This document shows, piece by piece, positions 46,561-57,452 of a stretch of DNA of 64,000 nucleotides. The position numbers were made by a program, and so were the translations under genes. The notes under the pieces were generated by a model. It saw only the letters and a list, made by a program, of their open reading frames with translations, searched no databases and had not been told where the DNA came from. Each line of letters starts with the position of its first letter. Position 1 is the stretch's first letter. The DNA comes from Thermincola carboxydiphila (GTDB taxonomy: Bacteria > Bacillota > Thermincolia > Thermincolales > UBA2595), in assembly GCA_016841045.1 (NCBI GenBank), contig JAENZX010000005.1, positions 62,001-126,000 of the forward strand, given 5' to 3'.

Positions 46561-46631
46561 CCGAATAATGATAAAGGAATTTTTGCTCCAGTTACAGAAA
46601 TGGGAAAATATGTGTGTCAAGAGGAGGGTTT

Positions 46632-47756
46632 ATGGTGGGATTAAAAATATTACATACCGGTGACTTACATATTGGAATGAAATTTAACAGCTATCCAGAA
46701 TTGATTAGGGACCAACTCATAAAAGCTAGATTTAATGTTTTGCAAACTTTAGTTAATAAGGCCAATAATGAACAATGTAATATTTTGGCTGTGGCTGGAG
46801 ACTTATTTGATAAGATAACTGTTCCCAAAAAAGATATTGAAAAAGCTCTTTCAATTTTAGAAGGTTTTGCAGGTGATTGTATATTAATTCTCCCAGGTAA
46901 TCATGATTATGATAATGGCATGGTAGAGCTGTGGGATTTTTTTAAAAAGAAGCATTCAGACAAAGTAATACTTATTAATGAAAATAGGGTGTATTCATTA
47001 GAATCACATGATTTGGATGTGGCAATATATCCCGCTGGGTGCAATAGAAAACACAGTAAACAAAACAATCTTGGTTGGATAAAAGAAATTTCTAAACAGC
47101 CAGAGGCTAAATGGCACATTGGGCTTGCCCATGGAGCTTTGGAAGGGGTATCCCCTGACATGAGCCAGCAATACTTCTTCATGACTACTAGAGAATTGGA
47201 GGAGTTGCCTATTGACATTTGGTTATTAGGGCATACCCATGCCCCATATCCTGCTCAATCATCTGTGACAGGAAATAAAATTTTTAATGCTGGCTCACCT
47301 GAACCAGATGGCATGGACTGCACACATTCTGGTCACGCCTGGCTTCTAGAGATTGATGAAAAGAAAAATGTTACTGCAGAGTTAATTAATTCAGGCACTT
47401 ATCGGTTTATTGACACCACCGCAATGATTGAAGATGGTAGTTCTTTTGAGTCAATTAAAAGGCGGTGCTTAAAAGACGGTGCTGATACAACTCTATTGCG
47501 TCTAAAACTAAAAGGCAGGATTGACCAAGATTTATTTAGACAAAAAGAGTCTTTTTACAAAGAATTAGAAAGTAAACTTGCATACCTTAAGATAGATGAC
47601 ACTGAGTTGGGAGTTAAAATTACAGGGGATATAATTGATAGTGAATTCACTTCTGGCTCATTCCCACACCAATTTTTAAATGAGCTGTTTAGCGACGGAG
47701 ATGAAGACGCACTTCAGATTGCTTACGAATTGATTCAGGGGGTTAAAGCAATATGA
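46632..47756 (+). CDS. SbcD/YhaO-like metallophosphoesterase (DNA repair nuclease)
   Basis: 374 aa. The Mre11/SbcD phosphoesterase motifs are complete: DLHIG, GDLFD, GNHDYD, GLAHG and GHTHAP, all of which supply di-Mn ligands. Such proteins are exo/endonucleases acting with an SMC-like ATPase, encoded directly next (4-nt ATGA overlap). The ATG at 46632 follows GAGGAGG. The gene pair is visibly more A/T-rich in third positions than addAB upstream, which may indicate a different history. YhaO of Bacillus is the closest named relative I can suggest. Confidence 0.87.
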   Translation: MVGLKILHTGDLHIGMKFNSYPELIRDQLIKARFNVLQTLVNKANNEQCNILAVAGDLFDKITVPKKDIEKALSILEGFAGDCILILPGNHDYDNGMVELWDFFKKKHSDKVILINENRVYSLESHDLDVAIYPAGCNRKHSKQNNLGWIKEISKQPEAKWHIGLAHGALEGVSPDMSQQYFFMTTRELEELPIDIWLLGHTHAPYPAQSSVTGNKIFNAGSPEPDGMDCTHSGHAWLLEIDEKKNVTAELINSGTYRFIDTTAMIEDGSSFESIKRRCLKDGADTTLLRLKLKGRIDQDLFRQKESFYKELESKLAYLKIDDTELGVKITGDIIDSEFTSGSFPHQFLNELFSDGDEDALQIAYELIQGVKAI

Positions 47757-50170
47757 AAATAAAAAATTTTAAGTGTAACAACTTTGGTGGAGTTATAAGT
47801 CAGGATATTAGCTTTTCCGATGGCTTAAACGTTATAGTTGGTCCTAATGAAGCTGGTAAAAGCACTATAGTAGAAGGTTTACATGCAACATTATTTAGAA
47901 AACCAAGACTTAAGAAAAGCAGTAACGCAGACAATGAATTTCTTAAAAGGTTTAGACCATATCCAAATGGAGATTCAATGTCTGGAAGTATTTCTTTTGA
48001 TATTAGTGGTATGAAATATGAAATTAGTAAAGGGTGGGGAGCATCAAAATCGGTTGCCCTAACTCTGGATGGGCAGGTTATAAAAGATGAAGATACCGTT
48101 AATGAAAAGCTTAAGGAGCTTTTAAAGTACGGAGAAAACACTTACAATAATATTGTTTTTGCAAAACAAAAAGATATCAAGGAAGCCATTGAAAGGATTA
48201 ACAAGGATGAAGAGACCTCTAGTGTAGTCGGTGATTTGTTGCGGAAGGCAATTATGGCTTTAGACGGGGTTTCGTTAGAAAAACTTAAGAAGAAGATTGA
48301 CGAAGAATTTGATTTGCTTCAAAGAAGATGGGATATTACAAACAATAGACCTGAAGGTAATAAAGGAATTGATAACCGATGGAAGATCGGTGTTGGCGAA
48401 GTATTAGAGAAGTTCTATGAAAAGGAAGAATTATTGCGTAACATGAAGTACGCCCAAAAATTAGAGGACGAATATTCGGCCATAGTTCAAGAAGTAAAAG
48501 ATGTTGAAGGAAAGAAAAATTCGGTAAGAGATGAGATTAACAAATATAAAAGAATAGAGGGAGATATTTTACAGAGAGCTATCCTTGAGCCTAAACTTGA
48601 AACGTTAAGAAAGGACATAGCAGCCTTACGGGAAATCAATAAGGAATACCCAGTCAAGGAAGTCGCATTAAAAACCAAAGCAGAGGAATTGACCAAACTT
48701 GACAAAGACATAGAAGAACTAAAACAGGAATTAACACTTGCTCAAAAGGTGAAAGAAGCAAGCGCCGCTAAGGATTTGCTTTTAAAGGTTGAAAGGATTG
48801 AAAGTGTAATTGGCGAAAAAACTAATGAGAAAAATAAACTTGCAGCAATTCAAGATGCTGATATTAAGAGAATTGAAGAATTACAACGTAAGATGGATAA
48901 TGCTAAATCTGCAATGGAAGCTGGGACGCTTCTTGGCAAGTTAAACAAATCGGACAGGCAAATATTTATTACCAGAGGGCTGGAAGATAAAGAAGAAATA
49001 AGTACAGGTACTGATTTTTCGGCAAGTGGGTATTTAAAAATCGAAGTAGATTCCTGTGTGGAGCTTGAAATTAAGGCAGGAGAAATTGATTTTGAAGAGT
49101 TGAAAAATATATTTAACCAAGCTAAAGCAGAGTTAGATGGGTATTTCAAAAAGTTCAATGTTTCTGAGATAGCCGAAGCTAAGTTAAAGCATCGTTTATT
49201 CAAACAATTGACCGATGAGATAGAAAAGTATCAATCTCAAATTAAATTACTGCTTGGTGATAAGAACCTTGAGGATTTGAAAAGACAAGTTAGCGAGACC
49301 CAGGATATAAAGGCCCGAACAGTCGAAGAGATAAACCAGGCAAAAGAAAAGGCTAATAAACAAATCATTCAAATATCTGCCGAGATAGCTTCTCTAAAAA
49401 GTACTCTTGAAGGATGGATGAAAAAATACGGTGATTTGGATAAAGTAATAGACACACTTGCCCTTTCATTGAAAGAAATTAGTGAAGTTGAAAAAATAAT
49501 TGAAAACCTGGCAAAACTCCCTGATGGTTTTGAAACAGCGAAGGATTTTCAAGAGCATCTCGCTAAACTGAGAAGTAATCTTGAAAAAACTGTTGACTTC
49601 GAAAATGCTCTCAAAGAGAAATATCACGAGGTAAGCGGGAGGCTGCCAGAGTTCTCATATGAGGAATTGCGGCCTATATACAAAGAAGCAGAAGAAAAAT
49701 TTCAAAAGCGTCTTGCACGTCTAAACCGTCTTTTCAAAATAAAGCAGGTTTTTGAAAGGAAACTTTCTGAGATGGATAAAGGTTCTTTTGAACCATTAGC
49801 TAAAACGTTTAGCAAATATCTTTCCATAATAACTCTTGGAAGTTACCACGGCGGCGAAATCAATGATTCGCTCCTGGTCAATGTTGTAAAGAACAATAAT
49901 AAGAAATTACCACTTGATTTACTGTCTGCCGGGACTTACGATTGCGTTTTACTTGCAATTAGGCTTTCACTCCTTGATTATCTATTTGGAGGGAAGGACG
50001 GGTTGGTAGTCTTAGATGATTGCCTTGTGAATTTAGACCCAAAACGTAAAGAAAAAGCAGTAGAATTAATCAAAGAGTTTGCAAAGAATAATCAAGTTAT
50101 TTTCACAACTTGTGACCCTGGAACAGCAGCTCTTTTAGGAGGAAATATTATAACGTTACAAGCATCATAG
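47753..50170 (+). CDS. SMC/YhaN-like ATPase partner of the SbcD-like nuclease
   Basis: 805 aa. The N-terminus GLNVIVGPNEAGKSTIVEGL is Walker A, residues about 220-345 and 450-680 are coiled coil, and the C-terminus has LLSAGTYDCVLLAIRLSLLD (signature) and VVLDDCLVNLDPKR (Walker B and D-loop). The DD pair with xVN-D is as in YhaN proteins. No CxxC zinc hook is present anywhere; instead the middle (about 415-450) is a non-coiled insert rich in beta-type residues. It should open or bridge DNA ends for the nuclease. Shorter than SbcC (about 1000 aa). Confidence 0.85.
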   Translation: MKIKNFKCNNFGGVISQDISFSDGLNVIVGPNEAGKSTIVEGLHATLFRKPRLKKSSNADNEFLKRFRPYPNGDSMSGSISFDISGMKYEISKGWGASKSVALTLDGQVIKDEDTVNEKLKELLKYGENTYNNIVFAKQKDIKEAIERINKDEETSSVVGDLLRKAIMALDGVSLEKLKKKIDEEFDLLQRRWDITNNRPEGNKGIDNRWKIGVGEVLEKFYEKEELLRNMKYAQKLEDEYSAIVQEVKDVEGKKNSVRDEINKYKRIEGDILQRAILEPKLETLRKDIAALREINKEYPVKEVALKTKAEELTKLDKDIEELKQELTLAQKVKEASAAKDLLLKVERIESVIGEKTNEKNKLAAIQDADIKRIEELQRKMDNAKSAMEAGTLLGKLNKSDRQIFITRGLEDKEEISTGTDFSASGYLKIEVDSCVELEIKAGEIDFEELKNIFNQAKAELDGYFKKFNVSEIAEAKLKHRLFKQLTDEIEKYQSQIKLLLGDKNLEDLKRQVSETQDIKARTVEEINQAKEKANKQIIQISAEIASLKSTLEGWMKKYGDLDKVIDTLALSLKEISEVEKIIENLAKLPDGFETAKDFQEHLAKLRSNLEKTVDFENALKEKYHEVSGRLPEFSYEELRPIYKEAEEKFQKRLARLNRLFKIKQVFERKLSEMDKGSFEPLAKTFSKYLSIITLGSYHGGEINDSLLVNVVKNNNKKLPLDLLSAGTYDCVLLAIRLSLLDYLFGGKDGLVVLDDCLVNLDPKRKEKAVELIKEFAKNNQVIFTTCDPGTAALLGGNIITLQAS

Positions 50171-50198
50171 GGTTTGCATACGCAAACATATATTTAAA

Positions 50199-50226
50199 AA
50201 AGGAACAATGAGGTTCCTTTTTTTTG
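50199..50226 (+). terminator. Terminator after the SbcD/YhaN-like pair
   Basis: AAGGAAC pairs with GTTCCTT around AATGAG, followed by a run of seven T. A second hairpin (50251-50258 with 50265-50272) lies 25 bp further on. Confidence 0.85.
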
Positions 50227-50340
50227 CAAATCAGTTTTGGCTGAAATAAGAAGTCCACATAAAAGTGGATTTCTTCTGTTAGAGAAGTTTTAAGATTGTA
50301 ATCCCTTCTTTAAAGGGTGTTTTTTGTAATTAATAAAAAA

Positions 50341-50381
50341 TTAACATTTCTATTGCTGAGAGTTAACACTGACACGTTACA
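50341..50381 (+). promoter_or_regulatory. Possible Pho box upstream of phoP
   Basis: TTAACA at 50341 and at 50363 are exactly two 11-bp periods apart; a looser GTTACA follows near 50376. This would fit PhoP autoregulation but only two repeats are perfect. Confidence 0.45.
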
Positions 50382-50424
50382 ATCATATTGGACAAGAACA
50401 TTCAACATAACAGGAGAGAAAATT

Positions 50425-51126
50425 ATGCCTAAAATCCTGGTGGTAGATGATGAAAAAAGTATTGTTGAGCTTATCAGGTTTAATCTGGCCAAAGAGAAAT
50501 GGGATATTGAAATTGCTTTGGACGGAAGGACAGCAATCGAACTTGCCAAGCAAATCTTACCCGACGTAATTATATTAGACATTATGCTGCCAGAAATAGA
50601 CGGTCTTGAGGTATGCAGGAGGTTGAAAGCAAACGAGAAGACTGAAGCTATTCCTATTATCATGCTGAGTGCCAAAGGTGAAGAACTAGACAGGATACTG
50701 GGTTTGGAAATAGGAGCAGACGATTATATGGTAAAACCATTCAGCCCGCGCGAATTAATTGCAAGAATTAAAGCCAGGCTTAGAATTAAGTACCAGGTTA
50801 AGGAACAAGTACCGGAAGATATAAAAGAGATCAAAGTGGGTCAACTAATAATTAATCCTCAGAAATTTGAGGTATCACTAAACGGTGTTAAAAAAATTTT
50901 AACCCTTAAAGAGTTTGAACTGCTGAAATTACTTGCGGCCAACAGAGGAAGGGTTTTCACCAGAGAATTTTTACTAAATTCAGTCTGGGGTTATGATTAC
51001 CTGGAAGAAACAAGGACTGTAGATGTACATGTGAGGCACTTGAGACAAAAAATAGAAGAGGACCCTGATAACCCAAAACTAATTGAAACAGTCCGAGGAG
51101 TAGGTTACCGGTTCAGAGATGTATAG
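50425..51126 (+). CDS. phoP: PhoP/PhoB-like response regulator
   Basis: 233 aa OmpR-family regulator. The receiver domain shows KILVVDDEKS (acidic pocket), DVIILDIMLPEIDG (phospho-Asp near 52), MLSAKG (switch Ser) and VKPFSP (Lys). The C-terminal winged helix has LTLKEFELLKLLAANRGRVFTRE and RTVDVHVRHLRQKIEEDPDN. These match PhoP of phosphate signalling. The ATG at 50425 follows CAGGAGAG by 7 nt. No histidine kinase gene is adjacent, which is unusual for phoP. It is a plausible activator of the pstS Pho box at 11384. Confidence 0.88.
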   Translation: MPKILVVDDEKSIVELIRFNLAKEKWDIEIALDGRTAIELAKQILPDVIILDIMLPEIDGLEVCRRLKANEKTEAIPIIMLSAKGEELDRILGLEIGADDYMVKPFSPRELIARIKARLRIKYQVKEQVPEDIKEIKVGQLIINPQKFEVSLNGVKKILTLKEFELLKLLAANRGRVFTREFLLNSVWGYDYLEETRTVDVHVRHLRQKIEEDPDNPKLIETVRGVGYRFRDV

Positions 51127-51150
51127 TAAGCCTTAGTTGCTTACTATTTT
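51123..51150 (+). terminator. Terminator overlapping the phoP stop codon
   Basis: ATAGTAAGC (51123-51131) pairs perfectly with GCTTACTAT (51139-51147), followed by seven T residues. The stem includes the stop codon. Confidence 0.9.
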
Positions 51151-51290
51151 TTTCTCTGAGAAATTGCCCGGGCAAAATTTAAAATTCGTTTTTCAAAGAG
51201 TTAGCAGCTGGTTAATATTTTCTTAAACTTGGGAGAGTACAATATTTTCAGGATATTATTAAGTAGTTAGTAGAAAGGGGATAAAGAAAA

Positions 51291-51947
51291 ATGAATTTGC
51301 TTCAAGGACTATTGTTTGATCTTGATGGTACTTTAATGGATAGCAGGCAGGCGGTTGTTGAAGCTGTTTTAAAAACAGCAGAGTATTTTGCACCGGGGAA
51401 ATGTTGTATGGCCGATATCAAAGCAAGGTTTGGTGAGACGTGGGACAGTTTCGCAAGCTTTCTGGGGTGCACGGATAAAGAGACAATAACAAAAACCTAC
51501 ACCCAGTTTATTAAGGATAATTATGAAAATTCAATCGCCCCTTTCCCCGGGATAACAGAGAACCTGATTCTGCTTAGAGAGGCAGGATATAAGTTGGCGA
51601 TAGTTACTAATAACTTACGGCACCTTACATTGCGGGGGTTAAGGTTGAATGAGATTGAGTCATTATTTGACGTTATAGTGACCATTGATGATGTGGAAAA
51701 TGGAAAGCCGCATCCGGAACCGGTGGAGATGGCATATCGAAAGCTTAAAATGAATAAAAGGGAAGTTATGATGATAGGTGACTCGATGTATGATGTCAGG
51801 GCAGCTTATGCTGCAGGTGTTGAATGTGCCGTAATTGACTGGTATAAGTCGTATAATAAATCTCAATGGCTGCCTGACTATTATTTTTACAATATAGATG
51901 AATTAATGGAAATGTTGACTTATTCTCAAAAAAGAAAAGCTGTATGA
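51291..51947 (+). CDS. HAD superfamily hydrolase (phosphoglycolate phosphatase/PpaX-like)
   Basis: 218 aa. HAD motif I LFDLDGTLMDS, motif II VTNN, motif III Lys in GKPHPEPVEMAYRKL and motif IV MIGDSMYDVRAA are complete, with a helical cap (residues 18-85). It probably dephosphorylates a small metabolite such as phosphoglycolate or pyrophosphate. AAAGGGG lies upstream of the ATG. Monocistronic. Exact substrate unknown. Confidence 0.88.
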   Translation: MNLLQGLLFDLDGTLMDSRQAVVEAVLKTAEYFAPGKCCMADIKARFGETWDSFASFLGCTDKETITKTYTQFIKDNYENSIAPFPGITENLILLREAGYKLAIVTNNLRHLTLRGLRLNEIESLFDVIVTIDDVENGKPHPEPVEMAYRKLKMNKREVMMIGDSMYDVRAAYAAGVECAVIDWYKSYNKSQWLPDYYFYNIDELMEMLTYSQKRKAV

Positions 51948-51960
51948 AGTTCTCCTCATT

Positions 51961-51985
51961 AGGCCCCCCGAGGGTCTTTTTTTAT
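51961..51985 (+). terminator. Terminator after the HAD gene
   Basis: AGGCCC (51961-51966) pairs with GGGTCT (51972-51977, one G-U pair) with a short loop, followed by seven T residues. Confidence 0.6.
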
Positions 51986-52073
51986 TGAAAAAAGTTGAAT
52001 TGGTTAAAAGTTTCAAATGCAACGTTACATAGTTTTATAATTTTGTTTCCCAAAGTAATCGAAATATCCCTGT

Positions 52074-52382
52074 TTGGGCGGATACAAGTTTTTCTATCTT
52101 GATTGGGATTTAATTCTATACAAATGTGCATCTCTCAAAGAAAATTATGGTTCTCTGCTGGAACTTGGTAACAGAGAATTTACTTATTCAGAATGTGATC
52201 TCTGTCACTGGCAATGTTTTAAGGATCCGAGGATCTATTATTATCCTCTTATACAAATGGAACAAATTGCGGTAAACCTTAAGAGAGGCAGGTTTGGTCA
52301 AGTATTAGGGGTTTTAGACCGTCGGAATTTAGAGTCACTGTCAGCATGGGCAGATTTAGCTGTCAACAGGTTTTATGCTTAG
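52074..52382 (+). pseudogene. Remnant of a Cys-rich (probably radical SAM-type) protein C-terminus
   Basis: A 102-codon frame without a credible ribosome binding site. The segment YKCASLKENYGSLLELG and ECDLCHWQCFKDPRIYYYP resembles the C-terminal, Cys-rich part of radical SAM/SPASM proteins, but no N-terminal domain or CxxxCxxC motif is present upstream. It runs directly into a fragment of another gene in a different frame. I read both as decayed remains of a surface-polysaccharide or modification cluster. Confidence 0.4.
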
Positions 52383-52639
52383 AGGTAAAAGGAGATATTA
52401 ATGAATCAGTTGTTGAGCTTACAAGAGTACTCACCGGAGGTGAAGTTGTAGTAGTCAAAAGCACAGTTCCTGTTGGGACTGCTGAACGAATCCAAAGTCT
52501 GTTTGATAACGATTTTAATGCTAATTCACGCATTTTTAAAGCTATATGCCCGGAGTTTTTACGCGAGGGTACTTCGGTAAAAGACTTTTTAGAGCCCAGC
52601 AGGATTGTCATTTACATAGCTGGCTGCCAGAATTTCTAG
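52346..52639 (+). pseudogene. Fragment of a UDP-glucose/nucleotide-sugar 6-dehydrogenase
   Basis: Only about 75 residues resemble the family: NESVVELTRVLTGGEVVVVKSTVPVGTAERIQSLF followed by CPEFLREGTSVKDFLEPSRIVI, i.e. the middle of the NAD-binding half (STVPVGT; PEFLREG). The N-terminal GxGxxG and the catalytic-Cys domain are absent, and a stop follows at 52637. This is a gene remnant beside another remnant; an intact relative is encoded at 7227-8546. Confidence 0.7.
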
Positions 52640-52717
52640 CATAGGCTCTTCAATAAACTCATGGGATGAACTGATAAATGTGAAGGCGGTTGCAGAATAA
52701 ATAGGTAATCAATTAAA

Positions 52718-52754
52718 AGTAAGGGGCGGCTGAATATTCCAGCCGCCCCTTACT
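52718..52754. terminator. Perfect 15-bp hairpin downstream of the decayed region
   Basis: AGTAAGGGGCGGCTG (52718-52732) pairs perfectly with CAGCCGCCCCTTACT (52740-52754), 7-nt loop. No long T-run follows, so it may be a bidirectional terminator or a REP-like palindrome. The rest of 52640-52912 shows no gene. Confidence 0.6.
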
Positions 52755-52912
52755 AATCTGGATGTCTAATAGTGATTAATCCTCTTAAATCGACAAAAAA
52801 TTCAAAACTTTATTTAGTATTAACCTATGATAGGCAGTTTCTTAATTAAATGTTAACAATAGGTGGATAAAATTAGATAATAATAGAATTCATTAATAAA
52901 GTGAGAGATATT

Positions 52913-54133
52913 ATGAGTCTGATAAACCTTCTCGTGAATAAAAAGATGCCGCCGGAAAAAGCTTTCTTTCTGCGCCTGATTCAAAACAGAGATGTATCTA
53001 TATTATTTCAACCAATTTTAGATTTAGCAAATGGGGATATGTTTGGGATTGAAGCTCTATGCCGGGGGCCGGTAAACACCAGATACTACGATCCGGTAAC
53101 TCTCCTGACTTCCGGAGAAGATGTCGGGCTCCTTTATCCTTTGGAAAGTCTTATCCGTGAAGCTTCAATAAGGAAATTTAGCGGAATGAGGCTCTCTGCC
53201 AAATTATTCCTCAATTTAACTCCTAAAATCGTTAACGAACCGGGATTCGCCAAAGGTCAAACCAGAAGGCTTGTAAAGCATCTGGGTTTAAAACCCTGTC
53301 AGGTTATATTTGAAATTACAGAAAGAAGTTCAATTAAAGATTTTGCCAGCTTTAGAAAGGCCCTGGAACATTACAGAGAACAGGGCTTCCTGGTTGCAGT
53401 TGATGATGCAGGAGCGGGATATTCCAGCCTGCAGGCAATTGCAGAGCTTCATCCGGACTTCATAAAAGTGGATATGTCATTAATCAGGAACATTGACACT
53501 AATTCCACCAAAAGAGCGCTGTTGGAAACCTTTGTTACCTTTGCCGGGAAGATTAACTCCTCTCTAATAGCCGAGGGTATTGAAACAGAACAGGAATTGA
53601 ATACCATAAAAAATCTTGGAATAACTCTTGGACAAGGCTATCTTCTTGGAAAACCTCAGTCCGAGCCACCATGGCCTGAAGTAGCTCTACTTAAAGAAAA
53701 TTCCAAAACTATTACAGCAAACAGGGATTTAGCCCAAATCATAAGTATTGTGCCAACAATTACGAAAAATGCATTAATCAAAGATGCAATAAGCGTTTTT
53801 TGTAGTAATCCAAAATTTCCTGCTTTAGTGGTGAGTGAAGAAAAAAAAACCTTGGGTTTAGTAGTTAGGAATCATTTGTTTGACATTCTTGGTCCTCAAT
53901 ATAAAACTTCGGATTTCCTAAATCAGCCCCTCACTGCAGTAATGGATTCAAACCCTTTTATCATCAAATCCAGCCTTTCACTTTCTGTTATTTGTCAGCT
54001 TATAACCTATAGGGCAGATGTCAGATTAAACGATTTGGTAATTGTCACAGAGGACGAACAAGTTTTAGGAGTGATTTCTGTTTCACTCCTGTTTTCAAAA
54101 TACATTAACCAAACCATAAAAATCAGCAGATAA
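52913..54133 (+). CDS. EAL-CBS protein, probable c-di-GMP phosphodiesterase
   Basis: About 406 aa. The EAL domain (roughly residues 15-265) keeps the catalytic set: GIEALCRG (EAL), FLNLTP (Asn), FEITERS (Glu), VAVDDAGAGYSSL (DD), FIKVDMS (Lys), AEGIETEQEL (Glu) and GQGYLLGKP (Gln), so hydrolysis of cyclic di-GMP to pGpG is likely. Two CBS motifs fill the C-terminus (ALVVSEEKKTLGLVVRNHL; DLVIVTEDEQVLGVISVSLL), probably sensing an adenine nucleotide. The ATG at 52913 is preferred to a GTG four codons earlier. A chemoreceptor gene follows 29 bp downstream. Confidence 0.9.
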   Translation: MSLINLLVNKKMPPEKAFFLRLIQNRDVSILFQPILDLANGDMFGIEALCRGPVNTRYYDPVTLLTSGEDVGLLYPLESLIREASIRKFSGMRLSAKLFLNLTPKIVNEPGFAKGQTRRLVKHLGLKPCQVIFEITERSSIKDFASFRKALEHYREQGFLVAVDDAGAGYSSLQAIAELHPDFIKVDMSLIRNIDTNSTKRALLETFVTFAGKINSSLIAEGIETEQELNTIKNLGITLGQGYLLGKPQSEPPWPEVALLKENSKTITANRDLAQIISIVPTITKNALIKDAISVFCSNPKFPALVVSEEKKTLGLVVRNHLFDILGPQYKTSDFLNQPLTAVMDSNPFIIKSSLSLSVICQLITYRADVRLNDLVIVTEDEQVLGVISVSLLFSKYINQTIKISR

Positions 54134-54162
54134 AGATAAATTAAAAAGTTTCGGAGGGTCTT

Positions 54163-56037
54163 ATGATCAAATCACTGCGAGCTAAGTTGCTTTTGAGTTT
54201 TATGATTGTAACTGTGTCATTAAGTGCCGTAAGCATATTTGGATATAACAAATATGCGGAACAAGGTCAGCGAATAAAACATTTAGCCAACACAGATTTG
54301 GCACAAATGGAAATTATCTTTAAGCTTAATAATTTATTCAGGGAAAAGGTTAACTTTACTAAGGACGGTATCTTAGATGTCAGTTCCTTAAACAGAAAAA
54401 GGCTGGAAAAATCTCAAAAAAAGATTTTTGATTTGTTGGCAAAGGCTGAGCAAATGATTCAGGAAGATAAAAGAAGTGAAAAAAGCCAAATTGGACAATA
54501 TATAAAGAATCTCAGCAGCCTTCATAAAAAATACGATACAAATTTGGAGCAATTCATTAAAGCCAAAACAGCAGGTGATGCCGTCTTAAGTGAGGAACTG
54601 CTTAAGGAAAATGAAGCAATTGCCGGTCAAATCACCATAACTACAGATTCGTGGACTTTTGAGATAGCCAAAGAAGCTGATCAAAAGCTGAGAGAGGCTC
54701 AACATGATAGTAATTCAACATTGTTTCTAACGATAATGTTTATCATTTTTTCGGTTCTGGTTGCCACAATTATTGCGATTTATTTGGGCATTAAAATAAC
54801 CAGGCCTGTTAAACTCCTGGCAGAATCAGCATACAACATTTCAGAGGGAAATTTAACGATAGACCTTCCAGTGGTCAGGGCCAAAGATGAGTTGGGTACT
54901 CTCTCTGAAAGTTTCATAAAACTAAAGTCAAATCTTACTACAATAATTAAAGAAATAAGTAGCATGTCTGAAGAAGTAAGTACAAATTCTGATAAACTTT
55001 ATGAAAACACAGTGGAAGTAAGTAATGGCGGACAATTAATGAGCTCGTCAATAAATCAGGTAGTAGAGGGTATTCAAAAACAAAGTAGTATAGTCGAAGA
55101 AGCTGTATTGGTCATCCGCGAGTTTGATACGGCAATTGAACAAATAGCCACCAATGCATTTGACCAAACTCAGCAGATTAATGATACTACCCTGGCTGTA
55201 ACTCAAATGGCTCAGACAATTAATGAAATGGCAAAAAATGCACAGGAAGTTAGACAAGCAGCTGAACATACATTTTTATTTGCGCAAAAGGGAGGGACAG
55301 CTGTTAATAACTCAATCAAAGGAATGGAGTCAGTCAAAACTAATGTCCTTAATACGGCAGACAGAATTCACATACTGGGTGAACAATCAACAAAAATTGG
55401 AGCTATAATTCAGGTTATAGAGGATATTGCGGATCAAACCAATTTATTGGCCCTCAATGCGGCAATTGAAGCAGCAAGAGCGGGTGACCGGGGTAAAGGT
55501 TTTGCGGTAGTTGCTGATGAAGTACGTATTTTGGCCGAAAAATCCAGAAAAGCCACAAAGGAAATTACCCGTCTTATTGCAAGTATTCAGTTAGAAACTG
55601 CAAAAGTAATAGACTCTGTGGAAGATGGTACCCGGGAAGTGGAAAAAGGTTCTGCTCTGGCTCAGGATGCAGGTGCTGCTCTGGAGGACATTATCAACAC
55701 AATGCAGGTTACCCTGCAGCAGGTGGAGAACATTTCCCAGTCCACTGTTGAAATTGCTGAAAATAGTGATTCTGTAGTGCGGGTTATTCAAAGTCTTGCA
55801 GTTATTAGTGAAGAGAATGCAGCTACTACAGAACAAATGACAGCCGGCAGCCAACAGGTAGTTGATATCATAAAGGAAATTTCTTCTCTTTCAAGAACTG
55901 GAAATGATCTTGCTGAAAAGGCATCCTCTTCTGTAAATGAAATGAAACAGTCAGTATATGATATAAATAATTCTGCAAATGATTTATCAAATATGGCAAA
56001 TAGACTTCGACGGATGGTAAATCGATTCAAATTATAG
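54163..56037 (+). CDS. Methyl-accepting chemotaxis protein
   Basis: 624 aa membrane receptor. TM1 at about 9-28, a four-helix-bundle-like extracytoplasmic domain (29-185), TM2 (about 186-208), HAMP (about 209-262) and a long cytoplasmic signalling helix. The hairpin tip [20 protein letters not shown] is the CheA/CheW contact. CGGAGGG precedes the ATG. It lies between an EAL and a GGDEF gene, suggesting that motility signalling and c-di-GMP turnover are coordinated here. Ligand unknown. Confidence 0.95.
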
Positions 56038-56049
56038 AAGGTGTTGTTA

Positions 56050-56083
56050 AAGGGGGTGCCCGATTAATTACGGGCACCCCCTT
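56050..56083. terminator. Bidirectional terminator between the receptor and GGDEF genes
   Basis: AAGGGGGTGCCCG (56050-56062) pairs perfectly with CGGGCACCCCCTT (56071-56083), loop ATTAATTA. It includes the last codons and stop of the convergent GGDEF gene. Confidence 0.85.
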
Positions 56084-57110
56084 TGTGATTTTCAGAATGT
56101 TTTCGTTCAAAGACGACTGACGATCCTTCATTCTGTTTGGCGAACTTCTTTAATTCTGCTGCTATTTCACCAATTTCTAAGTAATTTTTAAATTTAAGAC
56201 TGGTGTTAGTTACTGCTGCCAGTGAGACAGTCATCAGAGGAAAACATTCCGTTTGGCCACGTCGGTTGGTGACTTCAATGAAGCCTTGTGACAGGTCATC
56301 AGAGTCGTAAAGCTTTCTGATATCTCTATCGAAGTTTTCAATAATGTATTTAGCTATAACTTTATCAATTTCCGGGTTAACTATTAATAAAAAATCATCT
56401 CCTCCAATATGTCCGAGAAAGCAATCTCTACATTCAGGAAATGCCAGGCTGTCATTTAATATTTGAGCTGTTAAGAGCAGAGCCTTGTCTCCTCTTTCAA
56501 AACCATACTTGTCATTAAAAGCCTTAAAGTTATCTAAATCTACATAGAATACTGTGAAAGGTTTATTATTTTCCACAAGTTCTTTTAGTTTTGCCTCAAT
56601 TACTAAGTTTCCCGGTAGACTGGTAAGTGGATTTGAATTATGGGCACAATAAATCTGTATTTTTGTTATGTTGTTAAGTAGACTCATTACGGAAACAGCA
56701 CCGATGTACTTACCGCTATCAACCACGATAATATCGTCATAAAGGGCTTGTTCAGTCCGGCTCATCGCTAGATGGGACACCTCTTCCAGAGGCATATACC
56801 GGTTTACAACCAAAGGCAGTCTGTCCATAATAAGTGCCACCGGTTTGTTTTCGTAAAGGGATACTCCATATTTCGATGCTAGATGGTAATATAACTTATT
56901 TTTCATGATCAAACCAACGGGAACTTCGTTTTTTACTACGACAATACCGGAAAAATTGTATTCGTTAAATATTTCTCTGACTTTGTAAACCGGAACTTCA
57001 TGCTCAACTGCTGGTATCGATTCTGCTATTTCACCAATTCTTATACCTAATCCGGGAAACTTATTATTATTTCCGTCACTATTATTTATAGAAGTTTGAA
57101 TAACCTTAAT
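56064..57110 (-). CDS. CBS-GGDEF protein, probable diguanylate cyclase, with a likely AUU start
   Basis: 348 aa if translation begins at ATT (57110). No ATG, GTG or TTG occurs in frame between the upstream in-frame TGA and a TTG at 56912, yet that stretch encodes the first CBS domain (AVEHEVPVYKVREIFNEYNF, then SGIVVVKNEVPVGLIMKNKL). GGGAG and GAGG lie 9 and 4 nt before the ATT. A second CBS follows (ALIMDRLPLVVNRYMPLEEV; DIIVVDSGKYIGAVSVMSL), then the GGDEF domain (YVDLDNFKAFNDKYGFERGD). The active-site loop reads GGDDF (236-240) rather than GGDEF/GGEEF. It likely makes c-di-GMP and mirrors the EAL-CBS protein. Confidence 0.85.
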   Translation of the reverse strand: MKVIQTSINNSDGNNNKFPGLGIRIGEIAESIPAVEHEVPVYKVREIFNEYNFSGIVVVKNEVPVGLIMKNKLYYHLASKYGVSLYENKPVALIMDRLPLVVNRYMPLEEVSHLAMSRTEQALYDDIIVVDSGKYIGAVSVMSLLNNITKIQIYCAHNSNPLTSLPGNLVIEAKLKELVENNKPFTVFYVDLDNFKAFNDKYGFERGDKALLLTAQILNDSLAFPECRDCFLGHIGGDDFLLIVNPEIDKVIAKYIIENFDRDIRKLYDSDDLSQGFIEVTNRRGQTECFPLMTVSLAAVTNTSLKFKNYLEIGEIAAELKKFAKQNEGSSVVFERKHSENHKGGARN

Positions 57111-57232
57111 AAGTCCTCACTCCCTTCAATTATTACATGATGGAATATTAACCCAGATAATTAATATAATTATACATTGGTTTCTTTGAGCACTAATTAA
57201 GACACTATTAAACTTAAGTTAACTATTTAGAA

Positions 57233-57256
57233 GACCCCGCGTTTTTACGCGGGGTC
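57233..57256. terminator. Perfect hairpin in the divergent region
   Basis: GACCCCGCGT (57233-57242) pairs perfectly with ACGCGGGGTC (57247-57256), loop TTTT. It sits between the divergent GGDEF and TPR genes with no gene ending there, so its role as terminator, attenuator or repeat is open. The rest of 57111-57452 shows no further feature. Confidence 0.55.
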
Positions 57257-57452
57257 GGTTAATATTTTTTATCTTCATTCTTAAATCTCTGAGCGGGGTA
57301 TTGCCCGAATTTTTCGCTTTAGAGTATTCAATGCCATTTGACAACTGTTAACTGCAAACTTTTTTTGTCATATTCTACTTCTTCACTCATATGTTTAATT
57401 GTAAATGGGTTTTATCCGCATAAAGTTTAATGTTAATCGGGGAGGGGTTGTT

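Follow-up and report, generated by a model that had tools for sequence, protein, structure and literature searches.

The window, a stretch of 64,000 nucleotides from Thermincola carboxydiphila, contains a minus-strand gene encoding a pair of CBS domains followed by a GGDEF domain (the CBS-GGDEF gene), for which the earlier note proposed an AUU start codon. The gene and the elements around it are as follows.

52901–54133, plus strand: EAL-CBS-CBS gene of the same family, lacking GGDEF; over EAL and CBS it matches the fused G009 protein (see below) at 39%
56048–56085, plus strand: strong terminator hairpin that takes in the 3′ end of the CBS-GGDEF gene and there encodes the C-terminal GGARN
56064–57110, minus strand: CBS-CBS-GGDEF gene (GGDDF motif), 348 aa from ATT, with a TAA stop at 56066–56064
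56910–56912, minus strand: TTG, the first canonical start codon, within a strand of the first CBS domain (CBS1) and with no Shine-Dalgarno sequence (SD); rejected as the main start
57106–57129, minus strand: mini-ORF TTG AAG GGA GTG AGG ACT TAT TAA, found by direct reading; possible but weak coupling
57108–57110, minus strand: proposed AUU start codon, with the strongest SD among the in-frame candidates and no ATG, GTG or TTG upstream of the TTG at 56912
57115–57127, minus strand: SD region GAAGGGAGTGAGG
57117–57119, minus strand: in-frame TGA, two codons 5′ of the ATT and within the SD region
57169–57174, minus strand: TATAAT, a possible −10 element seen by direct reading; not returned by the scan, which gave no good −35
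57233–57256, plus strand: G+C-rich, terminator-like hairpin between the CBS-GGDEF gene and a divergent TPR gene

The locus and its neighbours

The two single-activity genes, EAL-CBS at 52901–54133 (plus) and CBS-GGDEF at 56064–57110 (minus), flank an MCP gene, so that phosphodiesterase-only and cyclase-only members of one family face each other across it. That they are the halves of one split gene was considered and rejected, because the EAL-CBS gene has its own CBS pair. In four relatives of the same taxonomic family (G004, G008, G002 and G001) an SbcCD-like pair stands between the gene for AddA and the TPR gene. The corresponding interval in the window (46614–57400) contains different SbcCD-like genes and about 7 kb of signalling genes not seen there in the four relatives, namely those for a response regulator, a HAD phosphatase, EAL-CBS, MCP and CBS-GGDEF (protein names in both cases by reading). 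A response regulator of the OmpR/PhoB type lies near the CBS-GGDEF genes of three genomes (50317–51126 on the plus strand here, L215 1919–2614, and L042 139–828), and those near the genes of G009 and L042 match that of the window at 57% and 53%.

The leader yielded no Rfam family at threshold that would indicate a riboswitch or other RNA control, the weak matches falling mostly on the G+C-rich hairpin, and its folding is unexceptional (z = −0.36). Similar G+C-rich hairpins stand 5′ of the EAL-CBS gene (52549–52568) and of the CBS-GGDEF gene (57235–57254), with 85% identity over 20 nt. There is also a weak inverted repeat of 37 nt (70%) between 55782–55818 in the MCP gene and 57069–57105 in the first codons of the CBS-GGDEF gene, which is probably due to chance.

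The candidate AUU start codon

Read from 57119 to 56910, the minus strand begins TGA GGA CTT ATT AAG GTT ATT CAA, and there is no ATG, GTG or TTG in this frame between the TGA at 57119–57117 and the TTG at 56912–56910. The earlier note placed 66 codons without a canonical start between these two triplets; direct reading of the frame bears out the absence, but the count of 66 applies from the ATT, and from the TGA it is 68. The sequence GGGAGTGAGG lies 5′ of the ATT at 57124–57115, and we scored every in-frame candidate down to 56789 by its duplex energy with an assumed 16S tail, CACCUCCUUUC. The ATT at 57110 has an SD duplex of −11.3 kcal/mol at a spacing of 6 nt, in agreement with the proposal that a good ribosome binding site sits just before it, and all of the remaining candidates listed score −6.2 or weaker, including the TTG at 56912 (−1.3) and the ATG at 56906 (−2.7). 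Few sites score as well: 0.38% of the window's 3387 ATT triplets do so, as do 0.24% of internal coding sites taken at random, and the median best SD is −10.2 across 253 long frames in about 0.46 Mb of the genome (two 200-kb samples plus the window). By SD energy, spacing and the weakness of the competing codons, the AUU is thus the best-supported start, and translation likely begins there. With no canonical codon for the complete protein and an SD within the range of 5–9 nt before the AUU, the gene is plausibly a new instance of a known but uncommon type of start.

Strong near-cognate sites ahead of any SD-supported canonical codon are found in 27 of 308 long frames in the same 0.46 Mb, and nearly all of these 27, by reading of the individual entries, have an ATG, GTG or TTG within one or two codons. 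The exceptions, in which no good canonical codon is adjacent, are the CBS-GGDEF gene and one ATA case (L171 8687). This latter frame, on the minus strand, resembles a FecCD-type permease and has a strong SD before the ATA and no SD-supported canonical codon; a GTG inside the SD is an alternative start.

The infC genes provide a further comparison. In G001, G004, the C13 copy of G000 and G009 (at its second ATT) they appear to have ATT or ATA starts at a spacing of about 5–7 nt, and for the C75 copy of G000, where TTG, ATA or ATT could serve, the spacing fits ATA or ATT. It is therefore probable that infC in this lineage uses AUU or AUA starts, and the similarity of these spacings to that of the CBS-GGDEF ATT suggests that the lineage probably employs near-cognate starts, and does so for infC itself. 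The genome has two infC copies, L190 (contig C13) and L191 (contig C75); the former starts at ATA and closely resembles the infC of G004, and C13 may be either a contaminant contig or the source of a second copy.

Among characterized genes, Staphylococcus aureus infC starts at AUA, and the S. aureus cvfC1 and ccpN genes have AUU or AUA starts with strong SDs that give about 10% of the output of AUG in poor medium, rising for ccpN to as much as 30% in rich medium (PMC13009471). The CBS-GGDEF gene shares with infC, pcnB, cvfC1 and ccpN a near-cognate codon after a strong, well-spaced SD, but differs from them in that its AUU start is a predicted one that is not conserved among orthologues. Another parallel is RcsD-Hpt of Yersinia pestis, a C-terminal domain whose expression, after a frameshift, proceeds from an AUU that has its own ribosome binding site (PMC10191623); in both cases a larger signalling protein has had its C-terminal part disconnected from what lies upstream, although the full gene is still present in Y. 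pestis whereas the upstream domain is absent here.

CBS1 and the apparent loss of an EAL domain

Pfam detects only the second CBS and the GGDEF domains and does not report CBS1. A profile built from 43 homologues nonetheless matches CBS-pair structures from about position 17, and an AlphaFold model of the 348-aa protein has a mean pLDDT of 90.9, with values of 87–97 in CBS1 from residue 21 on. The claim that a convincing first CBS domain is encoded 5′ of the TTG at 56912 is thus upheld by profile, homologues and structure model alike. That TTG corresponds to residue 67, inside a CBS1 strand of the model (residues 63–69), and 5′ of it lies the codon for Gly66, a residue that does not vary in the alignment. 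All of the invariant family residues are kept in the window protein, and a fold search with it returned only the expected GGDEF and CBS (AcuB) structures. The model is mostly of low confidence over residues 1–17, which also align poorly, so it is the SD that places the exact first residue.

The closest relative found is a 622-aa EAL-CBS-CBS-GGDEF protein of G009, a genome of the same order, which is 69% identical from residue 15; searches of the class and order, covering ten genomes, found no closer orthologue. Most of the 71 homologues are fused in this way, the window gene is sister to the fused G009 gene in the tree (support 100/99), and the standalone, EAL-less label changes at least seven times. 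The fused closest relative and the tree placement indicate that the EAL half was lost on the window lineage, as it was in others, an origin that the earlier note missed. The ATT lies at the position corresponding to the cut inter-domain linker. No N-terminal EAL domain is present in the protein, the frame being closed two codons before the ATT; an EAL query finds none at this place, and its best match elsewhere in the genome, at 46%, is to the paralogous EAL-CBS gene. The SD region may be homologous to the G009 linker, but the similarity is no more than suggestive, with P of about 0.02–0.16 depending on the null and length used.

We compared the starts of the EAL-less homologues L044, L155, L157, L059, L054 and L042, leaving out L120. 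The readable starts all fall within aligned residues 4–23: L044 uses a TTG at aligned residue 4 after AAGGAGG (SD −13.7), L155, L157 and L059 use ATG, and L054 uses TTG. For L042 there is a GTG candidate further upstream than this interval, and its reading is ambiguous. An alignment of orthologues had been suggested as a way of seeing whether they begin with ATG at the same place; they do start near the same boundary, but with TTG as well as ATG. The case that the earlier note named as refuting, orthologues that lack CBS1 and begin at the later TTG, did not turn up, apart from L146 of G370, in which part of CBS1 is missing; L146 hardly differs from the fused L145 and is therefore a recent break. 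Since the EAL-less relatives use ordinary codons, the ATT appears to be lineage-specific and not a conserved control element, in a comparison that includes one genome of the genus.

The motif is GGDDF in nearly all of the 71 homologues, the window protein included. Activity has been reported for the GGDDF domain of Geobacter GSU1937 (PMC8835794), and the predicted protein is likely, though not certainly, a diguanylate cyclase, so that its earlier description as a c-di-GMP synthase is probable but too firm given a family-wide GGDDF. The closest described systems, likened to it by published architecture and motif and not by sequence (PMC12900916, PMC8835794), are PA3258 of Pseudomonas aeruginosa, an EAL-CBS-GGDEF protein with residual apparent diguanylate cyclase activity once its phosphodiesterase is abolished, and its P. 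fluorescens homologue RapA, a phosphodiesterase acting on phosphate starvation (PMC12900916). They have the CBS and GGDEF region in common with the window protein, PA3258 reportedly also has GGDDF, and their domain order is that of the fused G009 orthologue. The window protein likewise has a CBS pair and then a GGDEF domain homologous to those of fused members, but unlike PA3258 and RapA it has no EAL phosphodiesterase. The reported role of RapA in phosphate starvation, together with the nearby OmpR/PhoB-type regulator, makes a link to the Pho system worth a look.

How the gene may be expressed, and what it means

We consider it probable, at roughly two chances in three, that the gene derives from the EAL-CBS-CBS-GGDEF family (the PA3258/RapA architecture), has lost EAL but is functional, and is translated weakly from an AUU start. 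The DNA for the EAL half would have been lost from a fused ancestor, and translation would now start at the AUU at 57110 in the former linker, by means of the strong, well-spaced SD, to give a 348-aa product in which the CBS pair is whole and is followed by a GGDDF cyclase domain. Reporter data on other AUU and AUA starts suggest that the weak codon probably holds the protein at a low level, which would suit a cyclase without its own phosphodiesterase.

An alternative, which we regard as unlikely, is that this is a decaying truncation in which a recent deletion removed the EAL half, the frame is hardly translated if at all, and the ATT and SD are a leftover or a mutated start. The missing EAL domain, the non-canonical codon, the C-terminus that runs into a terminator hairpin, and the recent breakage of L146 would all fit such decay. 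It is harder to reconcile with 348 codons free of stops and frameshifts, the retained invariant residues, a strong SD correctly spaced at the ATT, and standalone forms fixed elsewhere in the family. Nor does CBS1 show excess change. Compared with G009, residues 18–66 are 59% identical and residues 67–335 are 71% identical, with pN/pS of 0.35 and 0.25 respectively (indicative only, since pS is near saturation, although pN is low). When changes are polarised by outgroups, those derived in the window and in G009 stand at 10:7 in the first segment and 39:29 in the second, which argues that CBS1 is not accelerated on the window branch; selection on the fused ancestor and selection after truncation cannot be separated in these comparisons.

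We find improbable a more elaborate version, in which selection after EAL loss favoured the weak AUU because it limits the amount of a diguanylate cyclase left unbalanced, and in which the codon also couples that amount to IF3 activity through start-codon stringency. IF3 control is possible but not specially supported, because the codon is not conserved and could be merely the best start available after truncation; sensitivity of this start to IF3 is speculative, by analogy with infC.

Quite improbable, too, is an assembly or base error or a strain-specific mutation, such that position 57110 truly begins ATG or another canonical codon or that an indel hides an in-frame start such as the GTG at 57120. 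This is a single draft assembly in 75 contigs, one base (GTGAGG-A-CTTATT) separates that GTG from the frame, and the G009 linker has ATGAGGCTTATT. The SD, however, suits the ATT and would abut the GTG with almost no spacing, the similarity to the G009 linker is weak, and errors at one given base are rare. Reinitiation by ribosomes ending the mini-ORF at the overlapping AUUAA, where the TAA shares the last base of the ATT, is very improbable, as the TTG and GTG of the mini-ORF have no well-spaced SD and direct initiation at the ATT needs none of this. Scarcely credible is a true start at the TTG at 56912 or the ATG at 56906, which are the first canonical in-frame codons and would be chosen by a gene caller restricted to ATG, GTG and TTG, but which have negligible SDs, the TTG moreover cutting a CBS1 strand and dropping Gly66 where most EAL-less homologues with readable starts keep CBS1 whole.

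The functional, AUU-initiated derivative thus remains our preferred reading. Gene callers limited to canonical codons would leave only 282 aa of the protein and break up its sensor domain, and near-cognate starts can therefore hide intact domains. The gene also illustrates how bifunctional EAL-CBS-GGDEF proteins have repeatedly come apart into proteins of a single activity, here with a new start in the linker. In the literature searched, no paper connected a diguanylate cyclase with a non-AUG start (one match concerned rcsD), and there was no description of such translational control acting on c-di-GMP. If the AUU does lower output, the gene would present a case of translational control on a c-di-GMP enzyme.
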